The position numbers were made by a program, and so were the translations under genes. The notes beneath the pieces are model-generated. The model was not told the DNA's origin, made no database searches, and was given only the letters and a program-made list of their open reading frames with translations. From Thuidium tamariscinum (lineage: Eukaryota; Streptophyta; Bryopsida; Hypnales; Thuidiaceae): a stretch of 64,000 nucleotides of DNA. Each line of letters opens with the position of its first letter. The stretch's first letter is position 1. The stretch is taken from positions 3,040,501-3,104,500 of the forward strand of contig OZ019759.1 in NCBI GenBank assembly GCA_947034885.2, in the 5' to 3' direction. This document shows, piece by piece, positions 1-57,089 of this stretch.

Positions 1-165
1 AGTTAAAATGAGTCCTCTAAACTAGAGAGAACACAATAACGTAAAGACCATATGTTATCCTCGAGTCGATGATAACATTGCATCACGTCATTCAAGCTAC
101 CGCATTAATCATAGACAAGTATCCTCGAGTCGAGGATACTTACTTCACAGGGTTTCTTTACTTAC

Positions 166-1530
166 CTTTGCAGCGAGCATGAACTTTGCTCCCGGAAAGA
201 CCCCTAGCACGTTCTCGTTTGGTTTCGCAAAATCCCGCAGCATGTCCAGGTAAAACTCCATGCGCAACTCGGTAGGCTCTATCCGCCACTTCGCCTCCGT
301 GTTCTTGTTCCAGTCCCAGTAATACGGGTTCTGCAGGGGAGTAGAGTACTTAGACTTCACCAGCGCACGACTGGCGGACGCAAATTCGTTGTTCTTCTTG
401 AACAAGAAGAGTAAAGGCACGTCCGGAGCCGTGAGGCAGTTCGTCACATTGTCTAAGAGCTCTGCTCTTCCTGGGACATAGGTGGACGACACGCACTCAA
501 AAATTTTCAACTTCAAGGCTGCAAAGGCTGTTGCCGCCTCGATGTCGCTTTTCCCCTTTAAGATAAACAGCCACACATTCAGTGTTGTCATCTTCGGCTT
601 CAAATTCAAAGCCATGAAGCTCAAAAAAGGGTCGATGGCGCTTTCTTCTTCAGAGGGTATGCCTCTCGGGGCTTCTTTCAAATCCACCAGGGCAAAGTTT
701 ACCTCCCGGGAATGATAAGTGTACGACGAGTTGGTCACCAGAGCTTCAGCGCCAACATCAATCCTCCGAATCTGAACACCTCCTTCTAGTTGAGGAAGTT
801 GATATTTCAACTTCATGAACCTGGTGAACATAAAAAGTACCTGGGGAAATTGCTTCTCCAGGTCTTTTGCCCATTTCAACCAAGCATCGTTGCGGAGACG
901 ACGCTTGAAATAATCCGCTCCTGGATGCGTTAGAAGGAAATCCCATGAGGCCGATGTGAATCTGTGCCTTGCCTTCCAGGACTTCCAAGTACCGTCAATT
1001 ACATCCCCACCATCATCTATGACCTGCAAATCGGGATTGACGGCCATCAGATCTTGGAGCACAACTTTCTTGCGCTTCCTCCGCTCCACCCACTCCTTGT
1101 GGGTCATATTGTCTAGCACGAGAACTTTGGTTGCGGTCACTGACACCTTCGGATAAATTGCTAGACGACCAGGTGTTTTACCGAGTAGATGCACTGCGTT
1201 CACTCCGAAGTCCACGTCCGTAAAATGCCCGAAGTGCTTGAAGAACTCCCTCTTAAGGGACATGCTCTTTATCTTGAATCCTTTCGCCACTTTGTAAGGT
1301 TTCAAGGCGCAGGGGTCAATTAACTCGCCCTTGGAGTGCTTTGTCAAGAACGACTCCCAGTGCACCCAAAGGTTGTCGGGCAAGGTGATGATCTGAATTT
1401 CATTTTTCAGATCGGAGGTGCCACTGATTTTAGCGCCGTCTCCCTCTGGATTTATATTTTGGAAGCGCTCAATCACAGCATCCGTGAAATTCTGCAAGAA
1501 TTGCGTAGCATCAAAAGTTGAATGAAACAT
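166..1530 (-). CDS. ParB-methyltransferase-like gene A, C-terminal exon (gene continues off left edge)
   Basis: Open for about 440 codons without a stop. The likely acceptor is at 1492-1493 (TTCTTGCAG), so the exon probably starts at 1491 rather than at the ATG at 1530. It ends at a strong donor (AAAG|GTAAGT) with 166 as the last exon base. The pattern fits the permuted N4/N6 DNA-methyltransferase fold. A strand-plus-acidic segment (FALVDLKEAPRGIP) stands where the catalytic (D/S)PPY motif belongs. A stretch ending NPYYWDWNKNTEAKW follows, then TELRMEFYLDMLRDF and ENVLGVFPGAKFMLAAK, resembling the KP..L...I..F...GD.VLDPF.G.GTT..AA region of these enzymes. The catalytic motif and the FxGxG glycines are not canonical, so activity is doubtful. 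Related genes lie at 31581-40174 and 24600-28567. The fold assignment is inference from motif order. Confidence 0.6.
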
Positions 1531-1806
1531 TTTAAAAATACTAGGACTTTATCCTCGATGCGATGATACGTTAACTGTGACTCAGATGTGAAACATGGAG
1601 AAAATTGCTGACGAAAAAATTGAATTGAAATAACATTTCAAAGTAACAAAACGCAGAGCCAGCTTATCACTGAATCGACGATACGGGTTCTGGATGGCAC
1701 AATACCTTGTACTTTGTCAGCTCGAATACTGACTTATTCTTCCTCGAGAAGTCTTCCGTGCGCACATCCGTCGGATGCTTATTGGTGATCCAAATTCTTC
1801 GACAGC

Positions 1807-3129
1807 TTACGATTTGGTTTCCCCAAGTTGGTTGGCGTGGTCCAAGTGATTTGTGCAATTATAAAACTTGGATATATTGCGCAACTGATTTCCATCTAGA
1901 GTCCAAACAATGTACGCGTCCCACGTCTTGAGTTCCACTTTCCTTGCTTCTCCACAGCCAGAAATTTGTAGCTCTTGCGAAGCTGTAATGCTGTGCTGCC
2001 CGTTGATAATCATGAACTTCCCATTCTTGATTTTGTCCCATGATTGAGGCTTCCTTTTCAAAAGCTTCTTCTTAATCACTAGTATTAGGCAGACTTTCTG
2101 TCGTTGATTCACATCAATCAGTTGGACGAGCTCCTTCTTCACAGCGTCCACGATGTCCCTTTGCAAGGTGCGAATGACATACTCAGGACTAGCTATAATG
2201 CACTGTTTGATGTCGATCTTCACAGTCTCTTGATCAAACAGAAAGCATTTCTGGTGCCCTGCCCAGAAAGTTCTCTAGATTAAAGCGAACTTCTCATGCT
2301 CAGGGACCTCCTCCGCAGTTGATGATGGAGCAACGGACACCGTAGTCAGAGCAAAACCTACACTACCTCCAATAGCAGGGGCACTAATCAGGCTTTTCCT
2401 TTTCTTCTTGGAAGACTCTCCCTCCCCAGATCCAGGAGGGTCTCTCTTTTTAGGCTCGGACCTTGTCTGTCCGGGCTTTCGTGGTCTACTTCCTAACCCT
2501 GTTCCAGTGAGTGATGGGAGGGCAGGATTGTCACTTCCCTGACGACGACCTTGCGAGTGGCCGGCAGTACGACCCACTGCAGGTGCTTTCTCCACATGCT
2601 CCAGTGCTTACCGATCAAGCGTCTGGAAAATTAGGCGCAATCTCGTCGCATTTGATTTGGCGGTGCTGTTCTTCCAAGGCACGTATCCAGCTTTTTGAAA
2701 CTGGTCATTTAGTGACTCCATTTGCGAACCCTCCAGGAATGTCATCAGATTGAAGAGATCAAATTTTCCATGGTAGGAGTTCACATTCAAGACAACGGAG
2801 TAGCAGTGCTCTTTTGGTCTTCCACTGTCGTCCACCTCTCGCAGCACAATCAGAATGTAGTCTCGCTGGTGCTCCTCAATTAGTGTCACTTTCTCTTTCA
2901 TATTCCAAGGCATATACGTATTTGTCCCTTGAACTCTGTAACACAAGTAGACGTAATTTTTAAATCGGTTTACACCGAAACTCCATGTATGAATGTGCTC
3001 CTTGAACTCCCACAGTGTCCCATATGTGTCCTCCATTTTCGTGATGAAGGGTTCGTCATGAAAAGGATTAATGAACGGTTTTAGATGGTGAGATGTTAAG
3101 GAATAGTCGTACGTGTCCGTTTGCTCCAT
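1807..3129 (-). CDS. ParB-methyltransferase-like gene A, N-terminal exons with ParB-like motif
   Basis: Starts at the ATG at 3129. The first exon (3129 to about 2612) ends at a GTAAGC donor and encodes a 173-residue acidic/aromatic region I do not recognise. The next open stretch (about 2595-2275) is a Pro/Lys/Ser-rich linker. It is separated by one in-frame TAG (2277-2275) from a stretch holding FMIINGQHSITASQEL and GNQLRNISKFYNCTNH. That resembles the (D/N)G.HR..A loop and downstream N-rich helix of ParB/sulfiredoxin-fold domains. A possible donor (GTAAGC) lies near 1812. Bacterial and phage proteins that fuse a ParB domain to an N4/N6 methylase have this domain order. The exact splice sites between 2612 and 2275 are unresolved, and the TAG may be intronic. 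P1 palindromes sit in the intron between this part and the next exon and just upstream of the ATG. Confidence 0.5.
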
Positions 3130-3882
3130 TGTTCTTTTCCTCTGTTACCATAACAGTCGCTGGTTAGATTTTGGTATCATCGACTCGGGGATACAAGACA
3201 CTTGTAAATACATAGTAGCAATGCATTAAAATAAGAATTTGAAGAACGAGCAGAATATTATGATAGGTAAGCTAATCATTGTTGACGATGAATTTTGTAT
3301 TCACGGATAATGATTTTTCTGTTTCTATACGGAAAAGGGAGAAGTGGTAGTTTCTTCACAAAACTGAAATCAATAATTTATTTGGCACTATTACCATTTT
3401 GTTGTCAGGCTGACAGGAAGGTTCTAATTTCTTATAACACAGAAGGTTCTCTCACACCCACTTCAGTCATGGGGAAGCAGTTATCCTCGACACGACGATA
3501 ACTCAGTGAAGATGTTTACCACCTACCAATAGCAGGCAAACCTAAATGCTAAAGGGTTATTTTCTTGAATATTAGATAACCGTCTGGTTCCTAAGGTTGC
3601 TCTTCATATTTTGTTGTGTTAGTCAGAAGTACCGATTAGGAGACTCACTAAGGTTATTTAATTTCATTTATCTCTGGCGTCACAACAAAAAGTCACGTTT
3701 GCTGACGTTTTCTGACAATGCTCTTCTGTTCCTCTATTTTGTCTGAATCAACTACCGTTCATCCTCGAGTCGATTATAAGGCATGAGCACTGACATTCTT
3801 GTAATTGTGGGAACTAATCCACTATTGCATCAGATGTTTAATTCAGGTTCCTCAGAGTAGTTTATTTCTTCGTCAGATAGTT

Positions 3883-4140
3883 AAAATTTACCGAAATATT
3901 TTCTAATCATCGTATCGACGATACTTTTCTACAATTTCTTTTGACGTAGTGAAAATTCACCGAAATCTTTTCTTATCATCGTATCGAGGATACTTTTCTA
4001 CAATTGGATTTTGACGTAGTTTAAATATATCGAAAGCTATTCTTATCATCGTATCGAGGATACTTTTCTACAATTTCTTTGACGTAGTTAAAATTTATGG
4101 AAATCTTTTCTTATCATCGTATCGAGGATACTTATCTACA
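3883..4140. repeat. Four-copy ~68-bp tandem repeat, each with one P1 palindrome
   Basis: Direct repeats built on GACGTAGT..AAAATTTA..GAAA..TTTTCT followed by a P1 palindrome and ACTTTTCTACAATT. They are spaced 67-70 bp, with palindromes at 3905, 3974, 4044 and 4112. The array could serve as clustered binding sites for a P1-recognising protein. It lies upstream of gene A. Confidence 0.85.
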
Positions 4141-4299
4141 AGCATGCAAGTCCTGAGCATGACATCGTAATATCATCGGAACGAGGATAACAACTCTACC
4201 TGGTTCTCAACCTTAATTCTAACAAAATATATGGCCTGTCCTACTATCACCGGGTCGACGATAGGTCCAACACCTTCCTCAAAACCCTAATTTCAATGA

Positions 4300-5345: not shown

Positions 5346-5379
5346 ACCCTACACTTCCTACCGAGTGTACAATTAGTTT

Positions 5380-10664: not shown

Positions 10665-11529
10665 TATCGTCGAGTCGAGGATATTGTGCGGTTTTTCAAT
10701 TTCAAAGTAATGTTTTTTATCGTCGTGTCGATGATACCACGCCCAATATCAGTGGAGTACTTCTTTGAAATAGTTACTAGTCTTGATTTCGAGTGACCCA
10801 ACTCACAATTTGGTGTGGGGATCTTAAGTAGATAATGGTTTACTCTAGTAGTTGATCCCGGTATTGTCAGTAGTGATTATCATTGAGTCGAGGATAACGT
10901 ATTCTTTTGGGTCCATATTGGTTTGTGGATTGATGAAGGGGAGTGCTCATTATTTGTGTACCATGTTTCACAAGATGGGCATGACACCTAATTTCGTTTA
11001 TTCATCGAGATTCTTCTCCCAGTATACGAAATGAGGAGTGGATTATTCAAATAGATTTGCGAAGTATCATCGAGTCGATGATATTCTATCGATAAAACTT
11101 ATTTTGGAATCAATATTATGAATGTCATACTCGTCAGGGTTATCTTGATTTCAACTGTTTTTCGAGTACAAGTATGGTGCATCAATTGCTGTCGTTTACG
11201 TATCATCGACTCGGTGATAACTATATTCCTTGTACTCCTATCCTCGACTCCGAGGAGTTCGAGGTCCTTGATGCTTGTGCCGGACTTGTAGACGATAAAG
11301 ATCCTTCTTGTTTTATCATCGAGTCAGTGATAATAAGAATGTCTTTCTGGTGTTGTCATAATTTATGAGGGGGTTCAAATAGTCTCACTTCTTGATTGTT
11401 CTGTTACAAGAGATTTTTAATTGATTGGTCTTTCAATCTTTCCTGGAAGACCAAGAGTGGCTTATAAATTGTAAGATTCTGTATTTCTATGATTTTCTGG
11501 ACTAACATCTTATCACCGATACGACGATA
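10665..11529. repeat. P1 palindrome family, right cluster upstream of the DUF7869-like gene
   Basis: Copies of the same 19-bp palindrome seen at 54-4263 begin at 10665, 10718, 10878, 11065, 11201, 11314 and 11511, with a partial copy near 11239. The copy at 11065 (TATCATCGAGTCGATGATA) is almost perfect. The cluster stops 30 bp before a likely 3' splice site (TTGGTTTTGGCAG, ending near 11561) just ahead of the next gene's ATG. It may therefore lie in a 5'-UTR intron. No copies are seen downstream of that gene. Confidence 0.85.
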
Positions 11530-11562: not shown

Positions 11563-14423
11563 ATGGATTTGCATAGTCCTGAGGAATTTTCAAATCCAGT
11601 TCCGACGCTTCCAGATGATGTTCAGTTGTGCGAAGGAATCCCTCGTAAGAAATGGGTGTCACAATCTGTTACCCTCCAGAACAATGACGGGGTGGATATT
11701 GCCAGAGGAATTTGTCAGAACGTTGACCCTGATTTGGTGGTTGACCACGATGGGAAGTCACTCAGTGACGACCGAGTTGCTATTCAGATTGTAGAGTCTT
11801 TGAACGAGGAACTCTACTCTTCTGGGAACATGTGGTCGCTGCGCTCTTGGCACATCAAGAGAGTGTTTCTTTATGACGGAGCCTCATTGTACGATCACGA
11901 TCAGACTCACATATACAACACGGCCATGAATCCCTCAAGCAGAAGAGTTCGAAAGGGGGTTTGGACATATGAAACAACTGGTGAAAGGGTTGATCCTGAG
12001 GTTCTTCCTAAGAAAGAACTTCTCCTGACTATGGAGTCAATCACTGCAGTTTCTACTAAAACATGTTGTGAGATGAATTGTGTGCAACCTTTCCCACGTG
12101 CACACATTCAGTCAATACGGACGGAAATATATGGAGGGGATGACTTCAAGGCTCGTAACAAGACACTTCTAGAGGTACATAGGCAGATTCACAAAGACGA
12201 TAGAGGCAAAGAGTGGATAACTTTGAAAGGTAGAGAGGTGTGCCCCACTGCTTGGTGGATTATTCATGGGATTGCAAAGTGTACATTCTATAGGTACAAA
12301 GTGAAAGCAAAAAGTGGGGAGCAAGCAGAGGTTCACGGAAATTTGGGGAGCAAGAAGCCTCGCAAGCATACTGTTCAAGCTACTGCCACACTTCGAACTC
12401 TTATAGAGTCGGATGTTGATCAAATGCCACACAAGACTAGAACACTTGAGTCTGGAGAGAAAGTGATTGCAATGGTTTTACCATCTTCATTTCGTTGGAG
12501 CGAGCAATTAGAAGAAATCAATGCTTCTAATGCAATGTTGGATTTGCCCCCAATATCTTCAAGCGGTTTGAGCAACATTCGTCGTGCTTCTTTTCCAGAG
12601 TATGCTGCAAAAGCACGTGGAGACACCTTCGCTAGGTGTGGAGTGTGTGACACCTACAAGCAATTAAGGAAAGCTTGTGTGGGTGCTGAGTCAAAATTGA
12701 AGTGGACCAATCTTTATAAAACTCATAATGAAGGGCAAGAAGCTCATAGGGAATACTATTATTCCAATCGACGCACTTCCACACTACGGCCCGAAACGAT
12801 GTTGTGCATTATTCATGATAAGATGGATCATTCAAAGACTGCTTCTCCACACTTCTCTCACAAGACCAAAGTGACAAAATCTTTCATGAAAATGCCTGTA
12901 GCAGTTACTAGTATGATTGCTCATGGTCATGGTGATGTGCGCTATGCACACTATGGATTAAGTATTTATCCAACAGATTCAAATCATACTATTGGATCTA
13001 TTGCAAGATTGTTGCGTGATTTGGAAGGAGCGCCCAAGAATTCATCACGCCTGTTATTTTCTATAGAGAGGGACCAATCAACATTGACCAAAGCACTTCT
13101 GAATGGAGCAGAAACTTGCTTAGATTCCCTCCTCCCACCTCCAGAAGAACCCCTTCTAGCTAAACCCCTTCCTCCTGTGTTAATATTGCAATTAGACAAT
13201 GCTTCAGGAGACAACAAGAACCGATATGTTTTTGCTTTTTGCTCTATGCTTGTCTGCAAGGGCATTTTTCGTGAGGTGTATATTAATTTCCTCATTGTAG
13301 GACATACGCACGAAGACATCGATGCTCTTTTTGGTCGTTGGAGCTCGAGATTGAAGACAAGTAGCTATCCAACACTTCCAAGACTCATGAAGTCTTTTAT
13401 GGATTGCGAGACGCACCCAGTGATTCCTCATCTCATTGAGGAAGTTCCTGACTTCAAGGCATTCGTACAAGGGTACTTGGGCACTGGAGGGGATTTTGGG
13501 GGGGGCATTCTAGAGCCCAACAATTTAAGTTTTTCATGGATCCAAACGGATGGCCTTTGATGGAGTACAAAAATTTGTGTAACGATCCAAAATGGTTGCC
13601 AGAGGATGGTAAGGGGATTCGGTTGTGGTCGGAGACTGAAGATGGGCTTCCTATAGTGCCGAGTGGGAATCCTCGACCTCTTGTTCCAGAGAAGATGAAG
13701 GATCTTGAACATGTAAAGAAGGGATTGAATGGTTTTGTTGCGCATTGGAAGAAAATGTCAAATGACGATTACACAGGAGAGTTCAGGCGAAAGAATGGTG
13801 CATTAGAAGATTATTGGAAAGGTGTTCGAGCGGCTCTAGATGCACCTCTTCAAGTGCGTGAAGCATTACTTGATGGTTTTTGGCCAGTTTCTAGGATTGC
13901 TCTGGATGAGACAGATCGGATGCAAAGAGATGGCACATTATATGAGGAAGACGCAGAAGATGTGCCGTTTGTTGGGCGCAGACGTGATCGTCCGCGTCCT
14001 TCATTCCGTATAAATGTGGATACGCATGAAGGTTCTTTTATCGCAGTACGACCCGCTCATGGTGATCCTAAACCATTTTGGCTTGCTAGGGCCATAACGG
14101 CTCCAAGTCTAGATCCAGGGCACATGTATATGATCAAAATTCAATATTGGACGCCTACCTCAAATCGGCACATTAATTTGGATACATATGAGGGATGGGA
14201 TATGAAACAAGGGAATGTGTGGCGTGAGGACACTGCAATCAAGCCAACATGGTCAAGTACGGGTTGTATCTTAACAGCTTGGAAGCCTCGTTTTCGCGAA
14301 AACACTAAAAAACCGAAAGTCTCAATTCCAAATTTACAAGTTGGTATCATTAAGGCATCGTTGGCGGCCTTTACAATCGATGAACGCAACGATGAGGAGG
14401 ATGAGTCTATGGAGGAAGAATGA
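11563..14423 (+). CDS. DUF7869-like transposase-type protein (one gene, frameshifted at a G8 run)
   Basis: Two overlapping frames, 11563-13560 and 13536-14423, make one ~950-codon gene. The first ends shortly after an eight-G run (13498-13505). Shifting frame there gives HSRAQQFKFFMDPNGWP, which runs straight into the second frame and matches what DUF7869 relatives show at this place. Visible features are a CxxC pair (C359, C362), an acidic/asparagine motif LQLDNASGDNKNRY (D545), then INFLIVGHTHEDIDALFGRW (residues 576-595). LDN..G.NKN and GHTHEDID are hallmarks of the DUF7869 family, which I regard as RNase-H-like and transposon-derived; that function is inference. The C-terminus is acidic. 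The ATG follows a likely acceptor. The gene is divergent from gene A and carries P1 palindromes upstream. The frameshift may be a real mutation or a homopolymer sequencing error. Confidence 0.75.
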
Positions 14424-15544: not shown

Positions 15545-16005
15545 TAGTCAAAATTCAATGACATTCCAATTTCTCCAATTGTTCTATGACATTCCAACCT
15601 CTCCATATTTTTTTTGGCCCGTCTTCACGTGAAATTTGAAATGAATAGGCCATTTACAAAGTAGACCCAAAAATGGCTACGTGGCGTATTTTTTGAAATA
15701 AAATCAAAACTAGACAATTTCAAATGTGGAATGGAAATTAGTCATAGAACATAAATGTCCTATGACATTCCAACTTCTCCATATTTTTGTCGTCCCCTTT
15801 TCACGTGAAATTTCAAATGAATAGGGCACTTAGTAAAAAACTCCAAATATCGCAATGTAGCCTATTTTTTGGAATCTCACAAAAAATAGGCAATTTCAAT
15901 TTCCAAATGGAAATTTGTCATAGAACACAAATGTTCTAAGAAATTTCAACCTCTCCATATTTTTTTGGCCCCTCTTCACGTGAAATTTCAAATGAAGGCC
16001 TTCTA
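15545..16005. repeat. Diverged copies of the 176-bp satellite
   Basis: Two to three units carry CTATGACATTCCAAC.TCTCCATATTTTT.. GGCCC.TCTTCACGTGAAATTTCAAATGAATAGG. They also keep the TCATAGAACA / TGTCCTATGACA inverted repeat of the 7-9 kb array. Divergence is far higher than within the main array. The last unit runs directly into the GC-rich block that follows. Confidence 0.75.
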
Positions 16006-16009
16006 CAAA

Positions 16010-16400
16010 GTAGACCGTTGGATTAGGCGGACGGCACCCACCCGATCATGGTCGTCCGTCGGATCGATTGGATGGCGGACTTCCTGTCCGCCTAATTGGG
16101 CGAACGCGTTTCCGACGTGCATTGCGTCGGCGGACGGACTGCTGCCGTCCGACGAGGCGGACGCATATCCGTCCGCCCGTCCGCGGCCGTCCGATCGCGC
16201 GGACGCCCGATCTTACGGCTGTCTGATCACACGGACGCCAGATCCCACGGCCGTCCGATCGCGCAGACGCCAGATCGCGCGGACGCGTGCGCGCCATCCG
16301 ATCGATCGGCGGACAGCGCCTCGTCGGGTCGTCCGCACAGGTTTAGGGCGTCCGCCAAGGTATAAGAGGGGCGGTTTAGGCCGTCCGCTCCACTCTTGTT
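16010..16400. repeat. GC-rich block of GTCCG/CGGAC inverted motifs
   Basis: An abrupt GC-rich island in AT-rich DNA, packed with GTCCG and CGGAC. Several form small hairpins, such as GGCGGAC-TTCCT-GTCCGCC near 16074 and CGTCCG-ATCGCG-CGGACG near 16190. Overlapping Arg/Ala/Pro-rich frames on both strands are composition artefacts. A comparable block lies at 20505-20855, on the other side of the kinase-like gene. Confidence 0.75.
16357..16372 (+). promoter_or_regulatory. TATA-like element upstream of the kinase-like gene
   Basis: GGTATAAGAGG about 185 bp before the start codon, at the edge of the GC-rich block. The position is plausible for a plant core promoter. Sequence alone is the only support. 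Confidence 0.3.
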
Positions 16401-16548
16401 TTCTCCCTTGCATTTTGCAAGCATGGAGTGGAAAGCTTGGTGGCTTAAGTTCTTAAGTCTCCATTGGTTCCCCTCCTAGGGAAAGCAAGGGTGACATTAT
16501 TGGGGCCCCCTTGTTGCTTTTTTTCGAAGTTTTGACGTGATTTTTATC

Positions 16549-30171: not shown

Positions 30172-30265
30172 TCACAATGGTATCCAAAATTGGGATACCA
30201 TGAGATACTCCAAAAAGAAGTAGGTTTTTTTTAGGTATCTCATGGTACTCTCATTCTAAGTATCC
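30172..30265. repeat. ~90-bp hairpin lacking the GGATCC core
   Basis: TTGGGATACCATGAGATACTCC and GGTATCTCATGGTACTCTCA are inverted around a diverged centre. Same family as the 28.9 and 29.3 kb hairpins. Confidence 0.65.
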
Positions 30266-30329
30266 AACCACCCCATAAAGTTCCATAAGATCCAACAGAC
30301 CATTTAAGGTACTTAGTGCTCCCCTCTTT

Positions 30330-34100: not shown

Positions 34101-34238
34101 AGGCCACGGACCACAACAATTGCATATACAAACAACTCAGAAACTCCTCCAGAACTTCCAATCATCCCAAAATTTGGCCCTATTAATATTTCTCGGGTTC
34201 AATCAAGTAAAGCAATAAGTCACGAAAGTAATAGGTTA

Positions 34239-37200: not shown

Positions 37201-38386
37201 AAACCCGATCCACGAGGACTAACGCTCAAAAATACTAAATGTTACACCCCCAAACCAATCAGGTGCCCGTAATTTAACGTTGGTGGAACAACTCACAAGC
37301 AAAAACCGACATAGTAGACAAGAAAAGAGAAAACAAAATTGGATATACAAGGTGATACAGTCTAAAGTTGCACCTCCTCGGTGCCGAGGAGGATCTGCAG
37401 TGATCAGGAAAATCACTCTCCATTCTCCCTGCTATCGTTCTTGAGAAGGGGCCTTGCTCTCGATCCAAGTCACGGAGTTGGACCAGAGATCAAATGACAT
37501 CTAAGGATCCGATGCGGGAGTGAGAACCCACAGACAAGATATCGACTATGAACTAGCAAACCAGAAATTGTATGTGAACCAGGGATTCGTGATCAAATGA
37601 GAACCAGCAAACGATAAATCAATGGACCTCCGAAAGGATCCTCGGTACCGAGGAGGATTTACTTTCAGCAACGAACAAGAATTCCAATCTGTGAACAGTA
37701 CCGGGGGAATCAAAGTCGACCTATACACGAGAATAATTAACTACAAAAGAATAACTCAATATTCGGCCTGCGTAAGAAAATAACTCAATCCACAATGTTG
37801 AACTATCTGCACACAGGAGGTCAATCGGAAACAAGCAGCTTGCACAAAAACCAGCAGTACAGGGGACGTGCGCACATCAGCTTTTCATAATCAAACCCTA
37901 AACCCAGATCTTTGCACTTGAAGCAGAGAACCAGAGATTCAAGATCTTTGCACCGGAGATCGAACAAGATCCAGTATCAAACCGGCATCGAGCTAGAATC
38001 AGCATCAAATATCCACTAGTGAAGTGAGATCAAACGTGAAGCACCGAACCACGATCAGGGCTGAAACCAACAAACTAGAAGTTGAAGCGCCACCGAAGGG
38101 GCTCCTCGGCACCGAGGAGGATTGAACCAGATATTAGAGATCAGAATGAATCTCTGTGTGAAAGCCACCTACTCTCCAATGCTTTTAAGTGTCAGAGGCC
38201 TTGAGTGCGCATTTCGTTGCGACCGAGAGTTGAACGGCGGCTCCCGCATAACCTTCGCCATGGTGCCATCGCTTGTACTACGGCACACAAGTGCTTGTAC
38301 TCGGCTAGTTCACATTAAACTGCGTGCAGACGGGACTTAGCAAACGCAAATAAGCTAACAAATGCGATCCTCGGTGCCGAGGAGGA
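34239..38386. repeat. P2 palindrome family in E3 introns
   Basis: Copies of CCTCCTCGGTACCGAGGAGG (centre GGTACC, GGTGCC or GGCACC) at 34239-34260, 36869-36887, 36964-36982, 37061-37079, 37158-37175, 37373-37393, 37639-37657, 38103-38121 and 38368-38386. A degenerate one lies near 38751. Apart from 34239, all are in the 3.1-kb intron 1 of the ParB-methyltransferase-like gene. Further copies are in both terminal repeats and at 44448-44469. None is seen outside E3. Confidence 0.88.
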
Positions 38387-40174: not shown

Positions 40175-40713
40175 TACTCCCTACCTATATGGCCACCAAG
40201 AATGCTACACATAACTCGAACTTGCATCATCTACTTATCCCTAGTCTTCCTCTTCTACTTTCTAAACTGCCATGTAACAGACATCTTACTCACTAGCTTA
40301 GACTCATCCATTTAATTAATTCATCGTCTCAATCCTTTTGAAAAATTTAATTCATCAATGCCTAACTGCATTTTGAATGTTCCTGACATCTTACTTGCTT
40401 GAAATTTGAAATCTCTCTTTATCTAAACTATATTTAGTAACGGCATTCTATATACGCCTTTGGCAGCCGTCTAGAGTACATCCATGTTTTGAATGTCCTT
40501 ATTAAGATTCTTTTAAAATCAAAATTCACCAAGATACAGTATCACACTAAATCGCCATGTACCTACTTCCTTAGTAATGTCATTCATTTCTTTTTAACCG
40601 CTCTCTAAAATTTGAAATTCTACAAAATTCCACTACCCTTGAATATACTAGATTTTCTACAAAATGAGACCTCCCAACAAAACACACAATCAAATACCTT
40701 GTATGCACTCATT
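40175..40713. promoter_or_regulatory. Bidirectional intergenic region of E3
   Basis: About 540 bp between the ATG of the ParB-methyltransferase-like gene (40174, -) and the likely ATG of the transposase (40714, +). Both genes must be driven from here. I see no unambiguous TATA box and no P2 palindrome inside it. Confidence 0.5.
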
Positions 40714-43700
40714 ATGGCCATGGCTACCATTCACGGTGTAAACCGCTCCGTTCCCTTGTCGCTTCCTGTAGATGATGATGGTGTTGTATGGATTTCCGAT
40801 GCAATGCTCTCCCAACGTTTTAGATTACTTAGAACATCCATGTGGTTAGAACAGGAAGTTTATGATGCTGAGGGTTTAGAAGTAGTTTCAACAGTATTGC
40901 AGAAGAAAATAGTTAAGGATACAGAGCTAACCTGGAGACTCCCGGTTGGGAAATTCAGAGTTTTTGGCTATCCAATGAATAGTCCCTTGATTCTTACCTC
41001 AGAGTCTAGTAAGTCCACAGTCCACACAACTTTCCCAGCTACTGTCAAGCTTGAGGGCTCTACTAATGACATCGTTGTTTTGAGTGAGTCATTTGATGAT
41101 GATGTCCTCCCTGGCACAAGAGTCCCAGAGTATTCTTTTTTCTCTCCAATCATTGAAACTGTCCTAGAACGTGAAGAGAGCGAATCGCAATCCCTCTCAA
41201 GCTTGCCCTCGCAAAATTCCAGACCGCCTTTACATCGTTTTATGGAATCCTCTTCTGTTCTTCACTGTCTTAGGCAATTGCAAAGTAGACCACATGGGAA
41301 GAATGACATGAAGTTCCTAAATTTAGATACTCTACGTTGCGAAAAGGTCAAGTACCTCCCATCAGAATTTAAAGGGGATGTGCTTTTCGAGCTCCCTCCT
41401 CTCCCTTCTTCTACTTCTCCATCTATAGCTCGCCAAATGGAAGGCATGGATAAACGATTCGATGGACATGTATGGACCAAAACTTACACGACTAACATTG
41501 TGAATGATTTTGGTCTCACGTTTCGATCTTCTAGCTGTGTTGGTCACCTATAGTGTAAGAACAACGCTTGTCCAAGGTTGCGTCGCAGCGGCTCATGTAA
41601 TGAAATAGAGTGGGAGGGCCTTTCCCCGCATGTCTTTCCTCTTGGAAACATCCCTCCGCTAAAATCGACCCTAGTTTGCCGGATCTATAAGTCTCCTCCA
41701 TCTTGCATTGAATCATGTTCGGCTAGGATGTACTACGTTGTCAACAAAACTGGTATTGGTAGGGCCTACATCCATATAGGTACACACCAACATCCTATTG
41801 CTAAAGGCACATGCCGCGAATCCGTTGAGAGACTCAATCAGCTTGTAAGTAATGAAGTCTCCAAGACTCCTATTGCAAAGAATTCCGCCATTGCTCTAGC
41901 TGCTAGTAAGGAATTCTTGTCAAATGAGATCTTTGCACTTGACCGGGAGGGCACACCCGAACCGCTTCGTGGAGACTCCCTGGTCAAGGTTATGGAGAGG
42001 TTTCGAATTCTTAGTTCTCCAAACATTAGAAACACTATCTCTTCCTTCCGACCCACTACTAACGGAGGACCGCTTGACAATATCATCAAACTGAAGTTGA
42101 AGAGTCCCTACGCATATATCCAAGACAGTATCTTTCCAGGACAAGGTAAAGAGAAGGTTTACTTGTTCAAGATGTCGGAAGAAGGCCCAGGTAGTGGTGT
42201 CGACCTCGTCAAACGTATGCAACCTGGTGGAGACCTCCAGAACTCTTAGATCATGTTTGACCACGTCAAACGAGTAAGGGGCTGGACAACAATGGCCGCC
42301 CATGTCTATGACTCCGAATATTGTCGTGTGATGAGCATTGCTGTCTGTGATATGCAAAGCGAGGATGTTGAGTCCCAGAAGTTAATGTGGCAGTCATTGA
42401 ATAGGTTGATGGCACGCCATGGAATCCCGAACACTAACTTCAAGGGCTTCATGGCGGACAGCGCACAAGCAAATTGGAACGCTGTTCGCATCATCTACGG
42501 GAATGGCGACCCAACCGTGAAAATGGTGGACAGAGAAAGATCTTGTCTCCTTCATTGGGTGACATCTCTAAACAGACACACGAATAAGCTTATCAAACCT
42601 GAGTTTCGAGAACAACATGTGCGCCTCTACAAACAATACAAGGACGCAAAGACATCAGAAGAGGCAGAAGAACTTTACCTTGGCATCAAAGGTTGGTGGC
42701 TATCATCGCGAGCGGTGTCTGAAGATGCAGTGCGCGAATTGGACGACTGGTTGGATTTTTGGCACTTCCGCTATCGCCAGTGGGGAGGCTTCATGGACAT
42801 GGTATAACCCTAAACCCCTTATACCTAATTTCTAACTCTAGTTGCTGTGCTGTTGTTTTGCATGTTAACCCTAACCCTAAACTACTCATTTTCTTTCATT
42901 TTAGGCATTGTTGTACTAAAAACTTAAATGTGTGCTGTTACAACCATGTAATACAGAAACTAGACATTGAGCAATTGGCGGAAATGCCATCTTGCAACCT
43001 TGCTGAGACAATACACAACAAGTGGTTGCAAATGTCAAGCAACCGGGGGACTTGCCTCTATGTAGCTACGACGGACGACATGATGCGTGCTATGATGCAA
43101 TCCACCAATTATTGGGCATTCCTTCAGGGTCACTCATCTGGCACTGGGCCCCACCTTGATGAGCTTCGTCTTCGGGCTGCCAAGCGATCAAACGATCCAG
43201 TGAAGATTGTTGTTGCAATTAGCATGCTTCCTAGGGCAGAAAGATTCACCACTAGGGTTCCCCACTTAGAAGGTGAAGAGGTCTTTGGATCAAGTAAACG
43301 AAAGTTAGATCTTCCGCCCGGATCAGAAGAAGACTCCCATCGGCATGACAAAGTTAACTTCTCCCACCCCCGTGTTCAAACCCGTTCAACACGAGCCCGA
43401 ACTGACGCTGGGACTTCAAACGTCATCACCACTCCCACTAAATCTACACCATCCTATCTTCCGCATGCCACTTCTATTCTTGAGACAGAGTGCAATCCAT
43501 TGCAATGGCACATTGCACGTTGCAAGAAGGTGGGGAAGAAATGTCACAGTGTTCAATTGGGGCAGAAAAAGAAATGTGGTGCACTCGTCTGCAAGGATAA
43601 GAAGAATGGTACTCCTGCACCAAGTTATAACGGTCGCATGACTGAGTATGGAAGTAAGGCAATCATCATATTTGATTTTTGGTTTTGCCCCGATGATATC

Positions 43701-44345
43701 TTGCGATGTGTTTACGGATCCAAATGTAAGTGGGTGTATGACTGGCCTGTTCTTCCAACAATTTGGCCTGTTGCCCATGGCACCAATCTGACCAAGGGCG
43801 AGATCCTCGCTTTAGAAGAAGGAGGCTTCCAACTACAAACGAAGGACTTTGACATGTCTCCCGGACGCCTCTTCCAAAACTCAACCACAGTAGCTGTTGC
43901 TGACATTGTGAGTCCAAGTCCGGAAGGCTCTGCTTCACATCCTACCAAGCGATATGGCAGGACCATTAAGCCGTTTGAAGGTGCTCCAACTGTAGACCAT
44001 CGCAACAAGTGGGAAACAGCCCGAAATGTCAAGGCTATTGTGAAGAACGTGACGCCAATTCCTTATCCCGGTTATGGGAGAATCATCACCATGGATTCAG
44101 GTATCTATCCCAAACAGAAGACATATATGGTGTCTCTGTGTGACTTTCCATCTTGCACGTGTGAAGATTTTGTTACAATGAGCAGTGGAGCACTGGGCAA
44201 ACGAAAAGCATGGGTGAATTGCAAACACTTGTATTATGTCTATCGATTTCTATGCAAGGCAAACTCTGAAGACGATAAGTACATACATGCACCAAGTCTT
44301 AGCTTCAACGAAGTACAGATCCTTCTCCACCATAGTAATCTTTAA
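40714..44345 (+). CDS. SWIM zinc-finger MULE transposase of E3 (two in-frame TAG codons)
   Basis: Exon 1 is 40714-42801 from ATG (MAMATIHGVNRSVPLSLP). It is followed by an intron (ATG|GTATAA donor, ATACAG acceptor) and exon 2 at 42957-44345; 1158 codons before the stop. All parts are in one frame, broken only by TAG at 41551-41553 and 42247-42249. A Cys/His-rich, GCM/FLYWCH-like DNA-binding region lies around 41530-41800 (CKNNAC, CIESCSARMYYVV, IHIGTHQHPI). The DDE-type core begins IMFDHVKR (D516), with GFMADSAQANW (D582). The C-terminus carries a SWIM zinc signature SCTCEDF...VNCKHLYYVY (CxC at 44154-44162, CxH at 44220-44228). This architecture is typical of MULE transposases, and the element's 10-bp duplications agree. 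The two TAGs would block a full-length product unless bypassed. 24 bases after the first and 3 after the second, reading resumes. Confidence 0.85.
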
Positions 44346-44447
44346 GTTTTATCTTTCTTACTCATACTAGTCCTGGCAAGTTATTGCCCTTTTTTATCAT
44401 GTAATCGTGGATATCCTAAATTACACAAAAATTTGAAAGGCCAAAAG

Positions 44448-44469
44448 GCTTCCTCGGTACCGAGGAGGC
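44448..44469. repeat. P2 palindrome downstream of the E3 transposase
   Basis: GCTTCCTCGGTACCGAGGAGGC about 100 bp after the transposase stop codon, outside the terminal repeat proper. Confidence 0.85.
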
Positions 44470-44718
44470 TCATATGCCTTCACAAGGAACTTGTGAACTT
44501 CAATGATTTTAGTTTTTTTTATCCTTTTTTGTATCCACTAAAGTTCATGTGGCTCATTGAGTTATCTTTGCAACAATGGATGAAATTCTTACTCTATATC
44601 CTAATGAACGATTTGTGAAGTTGATAAAAAACTTGTAAAGTGCCGTCTTAAATTTTTTTTTAAATGCCATTTGTTTTTATAAAAGAAAATGATTTTTACA
44701 AATTTATTATGAAGGCCA

Positions 44719-45244
44719 AAAGGCCTCCTCGGTACCGAGGAGGCCTTTAGTCTCTCACTATAATTTTTGACTTGAACAAAGGCCTCCTCAGTACCGAGGA
44801 GGCCTTTTGTCTCTCAATGTAATTTTTTTTAAAACCAAAAGGCCTCCTCGGTACAAAGGAACCCCTTAACCTATGCTCCTTGTTTTGTCTAGTTCATTTC
44901 ATTAAAAAGAATATTTCATTTATCCACATTCATCCACATTCATCCATTTACATTCATTTGAGTACTTTGAAAGATTTACAATTCCAGCTTTGAATCCCCT
45001 TTTCGACAACAATTTTGGTTTTCTTTGACAGATATAGGAATGACAGTCAAATTGCACAATTCATACCACCCAATTTTTGTGGCCATGGGATACCAAATCC
45101 GAGTAGAAAATCCACAATAATGGATAACAAAAATTAATTTTTTAGTAAATTCAAAATATTTTTTAAAAATATGTTCCAAAATTAGAATATTTTGAACTCA
45201 CTGCTCACCGCTCACTACTCACTACTCACATTCTAGCGTCGTTG
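44719..45244 (-). repeat. E3 right terminal inverted repeat
   Basis: Mirror of 30706-31130, somewhat longer. It has P2 palindromes at 44719-44748, 44778-44806 and 44838 onward, then ATCCACATTCATCC repeats, CTCACTACTCAC-type repeats and the terminus CTAGCGTCGTTG. Confidence 0.85.
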
Positions 45245-45304
45245 TCTTTTTGGTCATGGTTTAAAAAATTTAGGAAATTTTCTTTAAAAAAAATTCAAGG
45301 AGCC

Positions 45305-45395
45305 CAAATTAGGGGTACTCTGAGGCACCTCCAAAAGGGCCATCGGATCCAACGGACCTTTTTGGGGTGCCTCATGGTACCCCCAATTTAGGTAC
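45305..45395. repeat. Hairpin with central ATCGGATCCAACGG in E2
   Basis: AAATTAGGGGTACTCTGAGGCACC and GGTGCCTCATGGTACCCCCA are inverted around the GGATCC core. Same family as the hairpins at 28.9-29.4 kb on the other side of E3. Confidence 0.8.
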
Positions 45396-45549
45396 CTTTC
45401 TGAGTCTAAAATCAATTTTTTGGTCATAGTTTAAAAAAATTTGAATTTTTATTTATTAATTCATCATATAATTCTCTTGATTAATTCTTAATATAGGAAA
45501 AAAAATTAAAAAAATTTAGACTATGACCAAAAATTTGATTTTGGACTTA

Positions 45550-45655
45550 GCAAGGTACCTAAACTGGAGGTACAATGAGGCACCTCAAAAAGGTCCGTCG
45601 GATCCGACGGCCCTTTTGGAACTTGGAAGTGCCTCATAGTACTGCTAATTTGGTA
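45550..45655. repeat. Hairpin with central GTCCGTCGGATCCGACGG in E2
   Basis: Outer arms AAACTGGAGGTACAATGAGGCACC mirrored by GTGCCTCATAGTACTGCTAATTT. The centre is a perfect CCGTCGGATCCGACGG palindrome. Confidence 0.8.
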
Positions 45656-45689
45656 TCCTTTAATTTTTTCTTAAAAAAATTTCCTAAGT

Positions 45690-46070
45690 GTTTTAAATCA
45701 TAACCAAAAAGATAGTTTTGAAATTCAACAGGGTATCTAAAAAGAGAGGTAGTTCCAAGCATCCCCCAATTTCTCTTGGATACAACTAAACTTTATAGTA
45801 CTATTACAATTAATTCTAATTTTGATACCATTGACTTTTTTTAAATTATTTTTTTAATTTTTTGAAACCATGACTAAAAAGATAGTTTTGAAATTCAACA
45901 AGGTATCTAAAAGAAGGGCACCTCCAAGCACCCCATAAAGGTCTATTGAATCCAATTGAACTTTATAGGATGTTGAAAGATACTTCTAGTTTTGATACCA
46001 TTGATTTTTTCAAAGGTTTATTTTTCAAATTTTTTGAAACCATGACTAAAAAGATAGCTTTGAAATTGAG
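45690..46070. repeat. Right arm of E2's large internal inverted repeat
   Basis: Reverse complement of 30330-30705 with high identity; for example GGGCACCTCCAAGCACCCCATAAAG mirrors the left arm. Before E3 inserted, the two arms were separated only by the ~430-bp hairpin-rich stretch at 45255-45690. Confidence 0.8.
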
Positions 46071-53665: not shown

Positions 53666-54325
53666 TCCATTTTCCTTTGTCCGCAACGACTGGACCAACT
53701 CTTCTCTCGTTGCGTCGTGTTGGCAACTCCATTGCCGAATCGATTGCGCCACACCGAATTGATTGTGACGTAAGATCCTCCTTCTTTACAGCTGCACTTG
53801 TTCAATGTAGTTTCAGGCACTCATTTTAGTTATTGAGGGAGTTGGCAAGCAGAATGGTGCTTGTGTTTGGATTTTATATTGGTTCAATCACGGTTTGGAA
53901 TTTTTGTTGCTTTAGCGTTTGAAATGTGAATTGCCTAGTGTCACAGTCCGAAAATATCATGTAAGTAAAATAGGAAGATAGTTTATAGAATAGTTTAATT
54001 TTTCAAAATTTTTAGGTTTAGATATGGGGAGGAGAAGACATTTAGAGTCTTTTTACCCTGGGATCCGTCTAAACCGAATTGACCAAGGAGAGTTTCCGAA
54101 TTGTGAGTGTAAGTTTCCGGATCCAAATTCCTCAGTATCCGGAATGGAACTTTCCGGAGGACAGAAGTGGACAAAGACGGATCCGGTACACTCTAGGGCG
54201 GATCCGAACTAGTTCCGGATGGACGGCACCTACAGGTCTACGCTGCCGACCTACGGAAACTAGCGTAACGGCTCGGGAACGACACACCGTTCCGATGAGA
54301 ACCGGGAACGCAGGGTACCGACTGG

Positions 54326-54334
54326 TATATAAAC
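54326..54334 (+). promoter_or_regulatory. TATA-like element upstream of the coiled-coil ORF
   Basis: GGTATATAAACC about 180 bp upstream of the start codon at 54507, in GC-richer sequence. A reasonable core promoter candidate for the following gene. Confidence 0.45.
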
Positions 54335-54506
54335 CACTCCGCCCCACCTCATTTTCCCTTTTCGATTTGGCAAATCGAGGTACGCTTGTGTGCAGGTTTT
54401 GGAGCGCATATAGAGAGAGAAAGAGTGGTGAGCAGTAGAGATCGGTTCCGGGTTTAGTTCAGGGTCGGTGCCAACCGCACCGACAAGTTCCGACTCGGGC
54501 AGAGAA

Positions 54507-56507
54507 ATGGCGAGCTCCTCCAATCCGAAACGGATGGTGGTGACTGCCAAGGCGATTTCGCCACTCATCTCTTCCGATCCGCAGCATCGGAAGGAGTTAG
54601 AGGATGATTTAGTCTTCCTAGGGTGTGAGGGTCTAATCCAACGCCCGTGGAGTGTAAAGAGTGACGAGATGGTGCAGGAACTCCTCACGGGAGTTCCAAA
54701 TTAGTACCAACTCATGGTGAGGGGTAGACCGCCTTCATGGTCGCCGGAAGTCTAGGCGGAAGTTTACGGGTTTGAGAAAACCGGATTAGGTATGGCTCCC
54801 CAGACGGACAAGTTTAGCGTCACGAAGTTCCGGAATCCGCCCCACTCAAAGGATGGATATTCGGTTCCGGATTGCACGAATGACTGGCATAGACGGATGT
54901 TGGAATTCCTGATTCTCATCCTCTACCTGGAAAAGCCTACCCGTGTCACTGTGACAGTAGCAAACACCATTTTCGGATGTTTCGTGAAGCAGATAGTCAA
55001 TTGGAGCCTAGTCCTCCAGTATGTAGTTAATTGACTAGCCAAACATGTTGGATGGGAGAAGACCAGCCCTATCAGCGCCTACTTGTTCCATTTGTACTAT
55101 CACAATGACATACTCAGCGGACCGGAAATCCTCTCCTATGAGACCGGAGTTCAGATCCTAAGGTACGGCTTGATGGATGAAGTGGACAAGGATCCGGAGG
55201 ATCTAGAGGACGAGCGGATGGAAGAAGAACCTCAGGAGCTGAAGCCGGCCAGCCAACCGGAGCGGAAGGCGGAACGGAAGAAATCCACGACGTCGGATAA
55301 GAGGGGCAATCCAGACCCGGATCCACCCGGATTGACTCCGGGTAAGAAGAAGAGGAACCACTTCGATACCGTCATCCGACACGCCATGATGGCACATGCG
55401 GGTAGCAACAATCACCAAGCAATACTCAAGCAGATCTACGTCAAGCTGGGCGGAGTAAAGATCGAGGACATTCCGGAAGTCTTGGACCATCTTCCGACTC
55501 ATGAGGTGTTACGGAAGAAGGACGAGGAGATCCGGAAGTGGGAGGAAGAAGCCCGGATCCAGACGGATTGGATCCGACAGGCGGAGGATCTGACCCGAGT
55601 AGTTGAAGAAGGGCGGAAGAAGGCGGAAGAGGAGCGGAACGGGCTCCAGAGCACGGTGAGCTATCTGGAGAGTGACCTTAGTGTCGCCAACGGAAAGATC
55701 AGCGAAGCTACCACCCTGGTCCACAACCTACAAGGATTGGTGGCCTAGCCGGCGGAAGTAGTGGTGAGGGCCCAACTGTTTTCCGCCCGGTTGATACAAG
55801 AGGGGCACGTCACCGGATCAAAGCTCCTCACCATCTTGGTGGATTACCAAGCCAAGTTGGAGGGGGTACTGAAGGAGATGAGGGCCTTGGTTGGGTCCCT
55901 CAATCCGGAAATGGGAGAGGGCCTTCCGAACCTGCTCAACCAGCAGGTTTACACTGACTTCAACCCCGGAGCACAAGGATGGATGTCAACGGATTGGAAA
56001 CTGCTCGGTGACTCTCCAGTCATGAAGAACCTCGGCGAACTCGGATCGGATCCGAAGGCGGCCGAACTGTCAACCACACCGACGGATCCGCTCGAGAAGA
56101 AGGCAGCACCACGACTTGACCTGGAGATCCAGATGAAGGCCCTAACGAATCCGGCCAGGGAGAATCCGGCGAGGGAAGATCCGGACAAGTTCGCCCATAT
56201 GAAGGAGCCGGACAAGGTTCCGCACAACACACCAGTCATCCTGGACGACTTGGACAAGGAAGACGACCCGCCCATCATCATCCGTGACGAAGTTGGGGAG
56301 CAGAGTGAATTCCAGGGAGTAGAGTGGTCGGAAAGCTCAAAGGCGGATTCGGAGGAGACCTCGACAGAAGACAGCGGAACGCCGCCGGCCCCGATTTAGA
56401 AGAGGCAGATCCGTTCCGCCACCAAGAAGGCTCCACTTGCCAAGGCAGTGACGCACAGGAGTTCAGTTCCGCCCGCGGGTACTACATCGAAGCGGGCACG
56501 TAAGTAG
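54507..56507 (+). pseudogene. Transposon-like coiled-coil ORF of unknown function, five in-frame stops
   Basis: A single frame from ATG 54507 (MASSSNPKRMVV) to TAG 56505-56507, 666 codons, interrupted by TAG 54702, TAG 54753, TGA 55032, TAG 55746 and TAG 56397. Codon use and composition stay constant across the stops, so they look like point mutations in one gene. The first ~200 residues are compact and aromatic (FLGCEGLIQRPW, YGFEKTGLG, WHRRMLEFLILILYLE). A Pro/Lys-rich linker follows, then a strong coiled coil at about residues 330-415 (EEIRKWEEEARIQTDW, RKKAEEERNGL) and an acidic tail ending in a basic segment. I do not recognise the family. Plant transposons often encode such accessory or gag-like proteins, so mobile-element origin is likely but unproven. 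Confidence 0.6.
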
Positions 56508-57089
56508 GACAAAGTAGAGTAGTTAGACGGCTTTTTGAGATTTTGGATGGAAGATTCCTGGTCGGATTTCCCGGATGTCGGCCCCGATCCGGAACTTTAG
56601 GAATAACTAGCCGGACCTTTCCGGATAATCCGGTTGGGCTCCGATTGGTTGTTTCGGATTTTCTTTTGCCTTGTTGGCATTCCGTTTCTGTTTTTAGGCT
56701 TTGACTTTTGTTTTGATTTGGGCTTTTAAGGGGCAAGCAAGTTAGTTGGCCTGTCATTCCCTCCTAGCACATATTCATGTATTATCATTCCTTTCTTTAA
56801 TCTGAGCCAGCAGGTGAACATTCCAGCTCTGACTTTTGTGTTTGGGATTCTCTTGGTGTGTTTGTTTGAAGTGTTGAGAGTTAAGAGGGACAGGTGAGGA
56901 GGAATTCGGATTTTTAGGCAACTGAGATCTGAACTAAGTGACTAATTTTCGAGAGTCGGGGTCTTGACTCCGAAGTTTGAGCGTGGAGCCTTTAATTTAC
57001 CGGAACGGTGATCCGGTGTGAGTCCAGGAGTGACGCGGAGGAGGTTCTGGAATCACAGGGGTGGATCCGTGCGGAGCTAAGCACACTAC

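Follow-up and report, generated by a model that had tools for sequence, protein, structure and literature searches.

Transposon-like elements in a 64-kb stretch of the genome of the moss Thuidium tamariscinum (C11:3040501-3104500, called the window here; the genome comprises 363.2 Mb in 19 contigs) carry short palindromic words that recur in the noncoding DNA of their own element family and are linked to that family elsewhere in the genome. Two types of element are concerned. One pairs a gene that we call gene A with a divergently oriented DUF7869 gene, whose product is presumed to be a transposase. The other, resembling Mutator-like elements (MULEs), pairs a gene for a protein with a ParB-like and a methyltransferase part (ParB-MTase) with a divergently oriented transposase gene; E3 in the window is of this second type, and the neighbouring E1 holds a broken ParB-MTase gene. 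Divergence is reduced at the fixed bases of one word, P1, and the words of the ParB-MTase families share a grammar. We consider it probable that the palindromes are operators bound by a protein encoded by the element, probably the ParB-type one, and serve self-regulation or anti-silencing.

Palindromic words and their element families

Palindromes in the window were recounted against composition-preserving shuffles, and exact genome-wide counts were compared with those of the reversed pattern; genome-wide tallies of genes and sites were taken from lists of matches, and the linkage figures are lower bounds. P1 (TATCNTCGANTCGANGATA) occurred four times exactly and 20 times with up to two mismatches in the window, 13 of the sites at 56-4245 and seven at 10665-11511. 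No such site lay elsewhere in the window, 20 shuffles yielded no match at the same threshold, and no site with three or four mismatches was found at the two loci. The preliminary description of this DNA, which had placed P1 only around gene A and the DUF7869 gene, was borne out more strongly than it had been worded. Across 363 Mb, P1 had 1225 exact sites compared with none for the reversed pattern, and gene A had at least 94 matches among the best candidates listed. Seven P1 clusters were fetched among the sites listed, all on C1 (places at 5.32 Mb and 7.13-7.17 Mb were omitted), and these, like all fetched clusters, were picked by palindrome position alone. Six of the seven contained both gene A and the DUF7869 gene (51-93% identity) in divergent orientation, and the layout of gene A was kept in six fetched elements, with 36-93% amino acid identity by exon.

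Two observations on this element stand apart from its palindromes. C11, which holds the window and makes up 17.5 Mb or 4.8% of the genome, carried 39 of the 94 gene A matches listed, a strong excess of copies and a pattern as on a low-recombination or sex chromosome. A 176-bp satellite array, present in the same orientation at 7013-9149 and 15576-15996, flanks the DUF7869 gene on both sides.

In the MULE-like type, the word CCTCGGTACCGAGG was present in four exact copies and at 15 sites with up to two mismatches, all within E3 (31040-44846; shuffle mean 0.05), as had been claimed. The sites are placed in both terminal regions, in one intron and in the intergenic region between the divergent ParB-MTase and transposase genes. 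Genome-wide, CCTCGGTACCGAGG had six exact sites compared with three for the reversed pattern; four of the six belong to E3 of the window, and the one fetched out of the two outside adjoins a transposase 92-96% identical to that of E3 (longer matches). This word is near-confined to a very rare element. The word GTCGGATCCGAC had 655 exact sites compared with one reversed, and all three clusters fetched, out of 12 listed on C1, contained ParB-MTase and transposase genes in divergent orientation; the ParB-MTase gene lies on the strand opposite the transposase in these three as well as in E3. The window holds two exact GTCGGATCCGAC sites. That at 29312 lies about 1.7 kb upstream of the E1 ParB-MTase gene, which is the one nearest to the GTCGGATCCGAC family, in accordance with the earlier assignment of this word to E1 and a further element, E2; its restriction to these two was wrong, because the second site, 45597, is inside the E3 right terminal repeats (44420-46067). 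From the exact and reversed counts, P1 and GTCGGATCCGAC are therefore massively enriched and CCTCGGTACCGAGG near-confined, while a word beside a kinase-like gene, treated below, is not enriched.

Three further words associated with ParB-type genes showed similar counts: CTCGGATCCGAG (292 sites, 4 reversed), CTCGGCGCCGAG (204 and 2) and CCTCGTCAACGAGG (126 and 0), the last of which was found starting from the proteins. Sixty-four of the 97 listed CCTCGTCAACGAGG sites on C1-C6 (sites on C7 were dropped) lay within 3 kb upstream of one of the 75 ParB-type gene copies listed, where 0.09% was expected, and the orientation of the asymmetric centre of this word was constant within the site set of each gene. 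Places with three or more CTCGGATCCGAG sites were within 6 kb of a listed ParB gene in four of five cases on C1-C2. Among the listed ParB copies of C1, three had GTCGGATCCGAC upstream and two had CTCGGATCCGAG, with no overlap. Similarly, P1 (up to two mismatches), the E3 word and GTCGGATCCGAC (up to one mismatch each) did not co-occur in the fetched loci.

Coding matches held none of 107 P1 sites and none of 17 GTCGGATCCGAC sites (0 of 124 in total), with the P1 cluster Pe, of which 10 kb was fetched, excluded from this tally and from the mismatch spectra given below. The description of the copies as lying mostly in introns, flanks and terminal repeats is accurate for P1 and E3, the main place being the intergenic region. 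Equal abundance across the genome, or a lack of connection to elements encoding a ParB-type gene, had been named beforehand as evidence against the idea; P1 and GTCGGATCCGAC clearly showed neither, and for CCTCGGTACCGAGG the outcome is the near-confinement to a rare element.

Constraint on P1 and a shared grammar

Comparison of related P1 elements (the window copy and the fetched clusters Pa, Pc, Pd and Ph) revealed three- to fivefold slower divergence at the fixed bases of P1 than at other noncoding positions in all four informative pairs. The differences at fixed bases and at other noncoding bases were 15/240 and 923/3720 for window-Pa, 5/96 and 604/2168 for window-Pd, 13/160 and 968/3837 for Pa-Pd, and 6/80 and 967/3238 for Pc-Ph. 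The requirement that a site be near-intact in the first copy somewhat lowers the core divergence; the N positions of the same sites, which serve as an internal control, differed at 12/45, 7/18, 15/30 and 3/15, respectively. The flanks of 111 pooled P1 sites, which were selected by the pattern and are informative only at flanks and N positions, contained almost no information beyond the two directly adjoining bases, which had about 0.5 bit each. Six related elements (120 kb) held 16 sites with three mismatches and seven with four, compared with one and one in the other loci (70 kb). The slow divergence of the fixed bases is the signature expected of a maintained, putative binding site; the constraint is not absolute, since related elements hold these sites with three to four mismatches.

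E3-type ParB genes gave 242 matches and 973 first-look candidates genome-wide. Twenty loci were chosen by protein features from the listed ParB-MTase copies, and 3.7 kb upstream of each was analyzed; L044, from the subfamily known to have GTCGGATCCGAC, served as a positive control, and L038 was included for the lack of a listed GTCGGATCCGAC site in its vicinity. The 20 regions contained 95 TCG-N4-CGA sites compared with 13.6 expected, 90 of them outside L044. This pattern reached p<1e-3 in 10 of the 20 loci, the most of all trinucleotide half-sites at spacings 0-10, followed by the nested core CGG-N2-CCG (nine loci; 81 sites compared with 7.2). At spacings 0-3 and 5-9 the TCG and CGA half-sites were about as frequent as expected or less so, and spacing 10 gave 21 sites compared with 12.9.

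The N4 centre was specific to the locus: after tandem copies had been collapsed, 64 of 165 within-locus pairs were identical, compared with a shuffle mean of 21.7 and a maximum of 42 in 5000 shuffles. This removal of duplicates reduced the upstream sites of L028 from seven to one. The words differed between loci in both centre and wings (GCTCGGATCCGAGC, CCGTCGGATCCGACGG, CTCTCGGCGCCGAGAG, CCATCGGCGCCGAGGG, CTCTCGGTGCCGAGAC, CCTCGTCAACGAGG and CTCTCGCCACCGAGAG), and E3's own word, TCCTCGGTRCCGAGGA, has a centre that overlaps that of the GTGC group and different wings. By DNA similarity, short shared repeats aside, the 20 loci fall into about ten groups, eight of which have a repeated word upstream; two of the eight (L027, and L034 with L042) share CCTCGTCAACGAGG. 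P1 itself reads TCG-N3-CGA. The palindromes of the ParB-MTase families thus appear to be variants of one operator grammar, not unrelated inventions. As for the earlier claim of a private palindrome per element, the words do differ by family, and privacy is not absolute, two loci carrying two words each.

Candidate readers and competing explanations

The ParB-MTase of E3, read across five in-frame stops, matched PF01555 (4.8e-08; 33.6 bits against a cutoff of 26.7) and CcrM (0.0014), and a sequence search of the PDB matched only the methyltransferase part. The canonical motif IV of such methyltransferases is [DNS]PP[YFW]. It is missing in all four ParB-MTase copies that were read, which have DVPDGL (E3), DCPENL (Gd and Gc) and DCLENL (E1) instead, the GTCGGATCCGAC family having DCPENL or DCLENL; for this protein, a function as a reader or a structural component therefore seems likelier than enzymatic self-methylation. 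An N-terminal DGNH box is invariant in the four aligned ParB-MTase copies, as is an INGQHS box in all seven copies of gene A, and both resemble, by eye, the ParB box. ParB-domain residues were obtained for 18 of the 20 upstream loci (31-62 residues; L027 gave no match and L032 none that was usable). Because the domain searches described below gave no significant support, ParB-type is used here as a label, supported mainly by the same architecture in Ectocarpus, which the accessible text of PMC12477816 calls ParB-like plus methyltransferase. Gene A exons had no significant Pfam match, and gene A is not classed with the ParB-MTase genes here. A search of viral contigs with a gene A exon and with the DUF7869 open reading frame (ORF) found no relatives, and a literature search on DUF7869 found no paper. 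An alternative genetic code was discarded as an explanation of the stops in the ParB genes, since E1 contains all three stop triplets (TGA, TAG and TAA).

Hallmarks of MULEs are a MULE transposase domain, terminal inverted repeats and a 9-11 bp target duplication. E3 has long terminal inverted repeats; the profile search gave no Pfam match to the MULE transposase domain, no clean target-site duplication was seen by eye, and a SWIM domain matched below the cutoff (E=0.071) in the transposase copy at 22331-22978.

In the interpretation that we favour, the palindromes would be operators repeated in the divergent promoter, introns and flanks of an element, each of two-fold symmetry and bound by a sequence-specific protein that the element itself encodes. 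The likeliest reader would be the ParB-type accessory protein, namely gene A in DUF7869 elements and ParB-MTase in MULE-like elements. Once bound, dimers of this protein would identify the element as self and allow both of its genes to stay expressible, whether through autoregulation or through counteracting silencing by the host, for which VANC in Arabidopsis VANDAL elements and VirB, acting against H-NS, are the models. Related families would diversify by changing the N4 and the wings of TCG-N4-CGA, with each protein acting mainly on its own family. An element-encoded dimer acting on operators would jointly explain the symmetry, the noncoding placement, the linkage, the constraint and the diversification. 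A ParB-type reader is preferred because both element types, whose transposases have no mutual match, use the TCG-Nx-CGA frame; this shared frame is weak evidence for the accessory protein as the reader in both, and is suggestive rather than proof. A bolder version seems to us possible and rather doubtful: ParB-type proteins of two unrelated transposon types would read the TCG-N3/4-CGA frame in family spellings as a self-recognition code, the methyltransferase fold would have turned from enzyme into reader, and the bound protein would load and spread in the manner of a ParB clamp, keeping silencing off its own family only.

A number of results weigh against a ParB-type reader of family-specific operators. 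Only 7 of 23 CTCGGATCCGAG places on C1-C2, and only 3 of 12 GTCGGATCCGAC clusters on C1, lay within 6 kb of a ParB gene among those listed (two of the nine unlinked GTCGGATCCGAC clusters held a ParB gene once fetched), and, judged by eye, 18 of 26 CTCGGCGCCGAG sites on C1 were not upstream of a listed ParB gene and 8 were. One GTCGGATCCGAC and one CTCGGATCCGAG site lie 4.2 kb apart on C1, and at two upstream loci out of 20 (L035 and L043) the two GATC-centred words are found together. The upstream DNA of the ParB-MTase copies F1 and F1b has no TCG-N4-CGA family, although these are the closest to E3 by protein (59-61%). The P1 cluster Pe (C1:19924735-19925342, L011) had neither gene A nor the DUF7869 gene in the fetched 10 kb; we read it as a remnant or non-autonomous copy. 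Three further pairs in the divergence comparison had a tiny aligned core (2/16, 2/16 and 0/0), and the half-site common to P1 and the other words, TCG, is three bases only. No significant match to a ParB domain was obtained in Pfam and the PDB for either protein, in NCBIfam for gene A or in PHROGs for ParB-MTase, and a profile comparison of gene A with ParB-MTase aligned only the boxes, with a probability of 1%.

We think it unlikely, with some evidence in its favour, that the transposase and not the ParB-type protein binds the palindromes, controlling its own promoter and assembling a transposition complex as at the terminal and subterminal motifs of plant elements. In the fetched clusters the transposase genes are as closely linked to the words as the ParB-type genes, and the E3 palindromes extend to the terminal repeat regions on both sides. 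According to the accessible text of PMC10398659, Spm TnpA and MURA lower the methylation of their own elements; these proteins of maize Spm/En and MuDR resemble the proposed reader in that an element protein is tied to methylation loss in its own family, and differ in not being of ParB type. Most of the sites are, however, internal, in the divergent intergenic region and introns, and related TCG-Nx-CGA words are used by two element types whose transposases do not match each other.

There is a small chance that the words are sites for host transcription factors, which the elements exploit or by which they are silenced. Given the TCG..CGA core common to the words, a single family of host proteins could read all of them, and two loci do carry two words. 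Against this, the words differ by element family, and ATCGGTACCGAT, which follows the same grammar and was seen in none of the families, had no site in 363 Mb compared with 18 for the reversed pattern.

It is very improbable that DNA cruciforms, RNA hairpins or products of hairpin-templated repair account for the palindromes instead of protein operators. Within the fetched clusters, the arms of seven of the 11 GTCGGATCCGAC sites in intergenic DNA do pair at 37 or more of the 40 positions next to the centre; they vary from site to site and are still complementary. Five intronic or flanking GTCGGATCCGAC sites, in contrast, pair at 14-29 of 40 and keep the 12-bp core, and around P1 the palindromy does not extend past about 21 bp. 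As an observation on their arrangement, it is common for GTCGGATCCGAC cores in divergent promoters to lie at the middle of inverted repeats that reach about 100 bp (L020 4797-5464; L022-L023 9384-10062; window 29312), whose arms differ from site to site, and intronic cores have no such arms. That the words are a functionless by-product of tandem duplication and transposon copying, a process visible in the tandem-copy groups at 3905-4112 and 36870-37159 and upstream of L028, is hardly credible given a word kept at sites with unrelated flanks, the slow divergence of its fixed bases and not of its N positions in four informative pairs, and strong enrichment at one spacing only.

Neighbouring features, known systems and implications

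The coordinates of the features are collected in Table 1.

Table 1 Features of the window, with positions counted from its first nucleotide
Feature	Position	Strand	Remarks
P1 sites 56 and 120	56..138		Exact matches; 3' flank or last intron of gene A
Gene A	145..3129	-	ORFs; one or more introns, and stops; exon blocks by eye at about 2608-3129, 1807-2607 and 145-1492
P1 sites 1550 and 1665	1550..1683		Gene A intron; splice sites by eye
Nine P1 sites upstream of gene A	3175..4263		Four of them (3905-4112) tandem copies
Seven P1 sites upstream of DUF7869 gene	10665..11529
DUF7869 gene	11563..14423	+	Pfam PF25273, 7.6e-39; divergent to gene A; frame interrupted near 13.5 kb
GC-rich tandem array with GTCCG/CGGAC	15990..16500		Upstream of kinase-like ORF; no support for a private family
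E1 broken ParB-MTase gene	24603..27647	-	tblastn with E3 exons; Gd methyltransferase part 49% identity
GTCGGATCCGAC-type sites 28961 (1 mismatch) and 29312 (exact)	28961..29323		Upstream of E1; each centres an inverted repeat of about 100 bp
E3 left terminal inverted repeat region	30258..31153		E3 palindromes 31040 and 31108
E3 ParB-MTase gene	31946..36716	-	Nine exons by eye, exon 6/7 junction unresolved, five in-frame stops; PF01555
E3 palindrome (1 mismatch)	34243..34256		Long intron of ParB-MTase gene
Eight E3 palindromes	36870..38382		Divergent intergenic region; those at 36870-37159 tandem copies
E3 MULE-like transposase gene	40612..44345	+	SWIM-type C-terminus by eye; divergent partner of ParB-MTase gene
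E3 right terminal repeats	44420..46067		E3 palindromes 44452-44859; GTCGGATCCGAC-type sites 45342 (2 mismatches) and 45597 (exact)
GC-rich ORF-bearing repeat	54000..57083		Mildly rich in GGATCC/TCCGGA

Two further sets, GTCCG/CGGAC hairpins beside the kinase-like gene and GGATCC/TCCGGA at 54-57 kb, had also been proposed as independent palindrome families, and this is not supported for either. The restriction of the first set to the kinase side is correct locally: the window contains two GTCCG-N6-CGGAC hairpins, at 16147 and 16189 (0.4 expected), both beside the kinase, and this side is rich in GTCCG (10 compared with 1.75) and CGGAC (9 compared with 1.1). A private family is unsupported because these belong to a tandem array and the spaced palindrome, counted at spacing 6, was not enriched genome-wide above its reversed control (245 compared with 304). 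Similar groups with the same or similar centres and a 42-bp spacing were observed at 16147-16204 of the window, C1:21383682-21383766, C2:8006467-8006551 and C2:8114434-8114518; because such groups recur at a few listed places, the array may belong to a copied repeat, perhaps one carrying the kinase-like gene. The kinase-like ORF itself (504 amino acids, 16537-18051) is intact, lies between elements and scored below the Pfam cutoff.

GGATCC and TCCGGA are not confined to 54-57 kb, which held 11 of the 23 GGATCC sites of the window (local expectation 5.2, maximum 9 in 20 shuffles) and 13 of the 18 TCCGGA sites (7.3, maximum 11 in 20 shuffles), a mild enrichment. The stretch upstream of the ParB-MTase copy F1 consists largely of this repeat: window positions 54580-57083 match it (L025 1-2501) at 81.7% identity, and the F1 upstream DNA has seven CGGATCCG. 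The repeat is possibly a further gene of the F1 element family, or a common repeat; a link of the GGATCC/TCCGGA stretch to the F1 family is possible. The left part of the repeat, taken as 53936-57083, is 86% identical to L044 (2892-3700), and diverged relatives of its ORF were seen upstream of F1b.

Two transposase fragments of one family, at 20860-23512 and 47715-50376, are 72.8% identical over their main stretch and spaced by about 26.9 kb. The second is preceded on the same strand by a weakly matching ParB-like fragment (46053-46232, E=0.019), and a further ParB-like fragment at 46317-46544, read by eye, lies on that strand as well. An inverted repeat at 52349-52923, with the ends TACTACCTCCATCCCAAAATGATCTTCC, resembles a Stowaway-type element, and a B3-like ORF was read by eye near 60.7 kb.

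Among known systems, VANC is a MULE accessory protein that targets short motifs repeated in the noncoding DNA of its own family, where they are frequently tandem, and related VANDAL families use different VANC motifs, according to the accessible texts of PMC5735166 and PMC10398659. The moss words are likewise repeated in noncoding DNA of their own element family and differ between related families. The VANC motifs given there are YAGTATTAY and AGTTGTCC/AC, whereas the moss words are two-fold symmetric and share a grammar; the string "palindrom" is absent from the main texts of both papers. The accessory proteins also differ, that of the moss being ParB/MTase-like. The second comparison is with Sola1-1_Ec32 of Ectocarpus, for which the accessible text of PMC12477816 describes a ParB-like plus DNA methyltransferase protein, with similar ones in green and red algae, and proposes that it binds and modifies its own transposon. 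The two-domain protein is encoded on the strand opposite the transposase in both cases; the moss genes, in contrast, are in MULE-like elements and have a non-canonical motif IV in four copies, and that text mentions no palindromic target for the algal protein. VirB of Shigella, a member of the ParB superfamily that recognises a palindromic parS-like site, spreads and relieves silencing (PMC10653881, accessible text), may serve as a working model of a ParB-type protein opposing silencing; it is bacterial and counters H-NS, and its likeness to the moss proteins is one of proposed action.

That ParB-MTase proteins bind and modify their own transposon had been proposed in print (PMC12477816), and motif-specific anti-silencing by VANC is established. 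Palindromic target words for ParB-MTase accessory proteins were not reported in anything our literature search returned, its coverage leaving most subscription journals outside. Anti-silencing has been worked out for Arabidopsis VANDAL elements, and the algal ParB-methyltransferase proteins had a proposed function and no known target. The moss genome offers a natural series of nine DNA-level groups of one element type (eight by their upstream regions, and E3) with about eight words, to which the second element type adds its own word, P1, at 1225 sites. With this series, co-evolution between a selfish reader and its sites can be tested directly, by swapping proteins and swapping words, and candidate orthogonal DNA-binding modules become available. 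Palindromes confined to a single transposon family would provide a simple route to such systems elsewhere.

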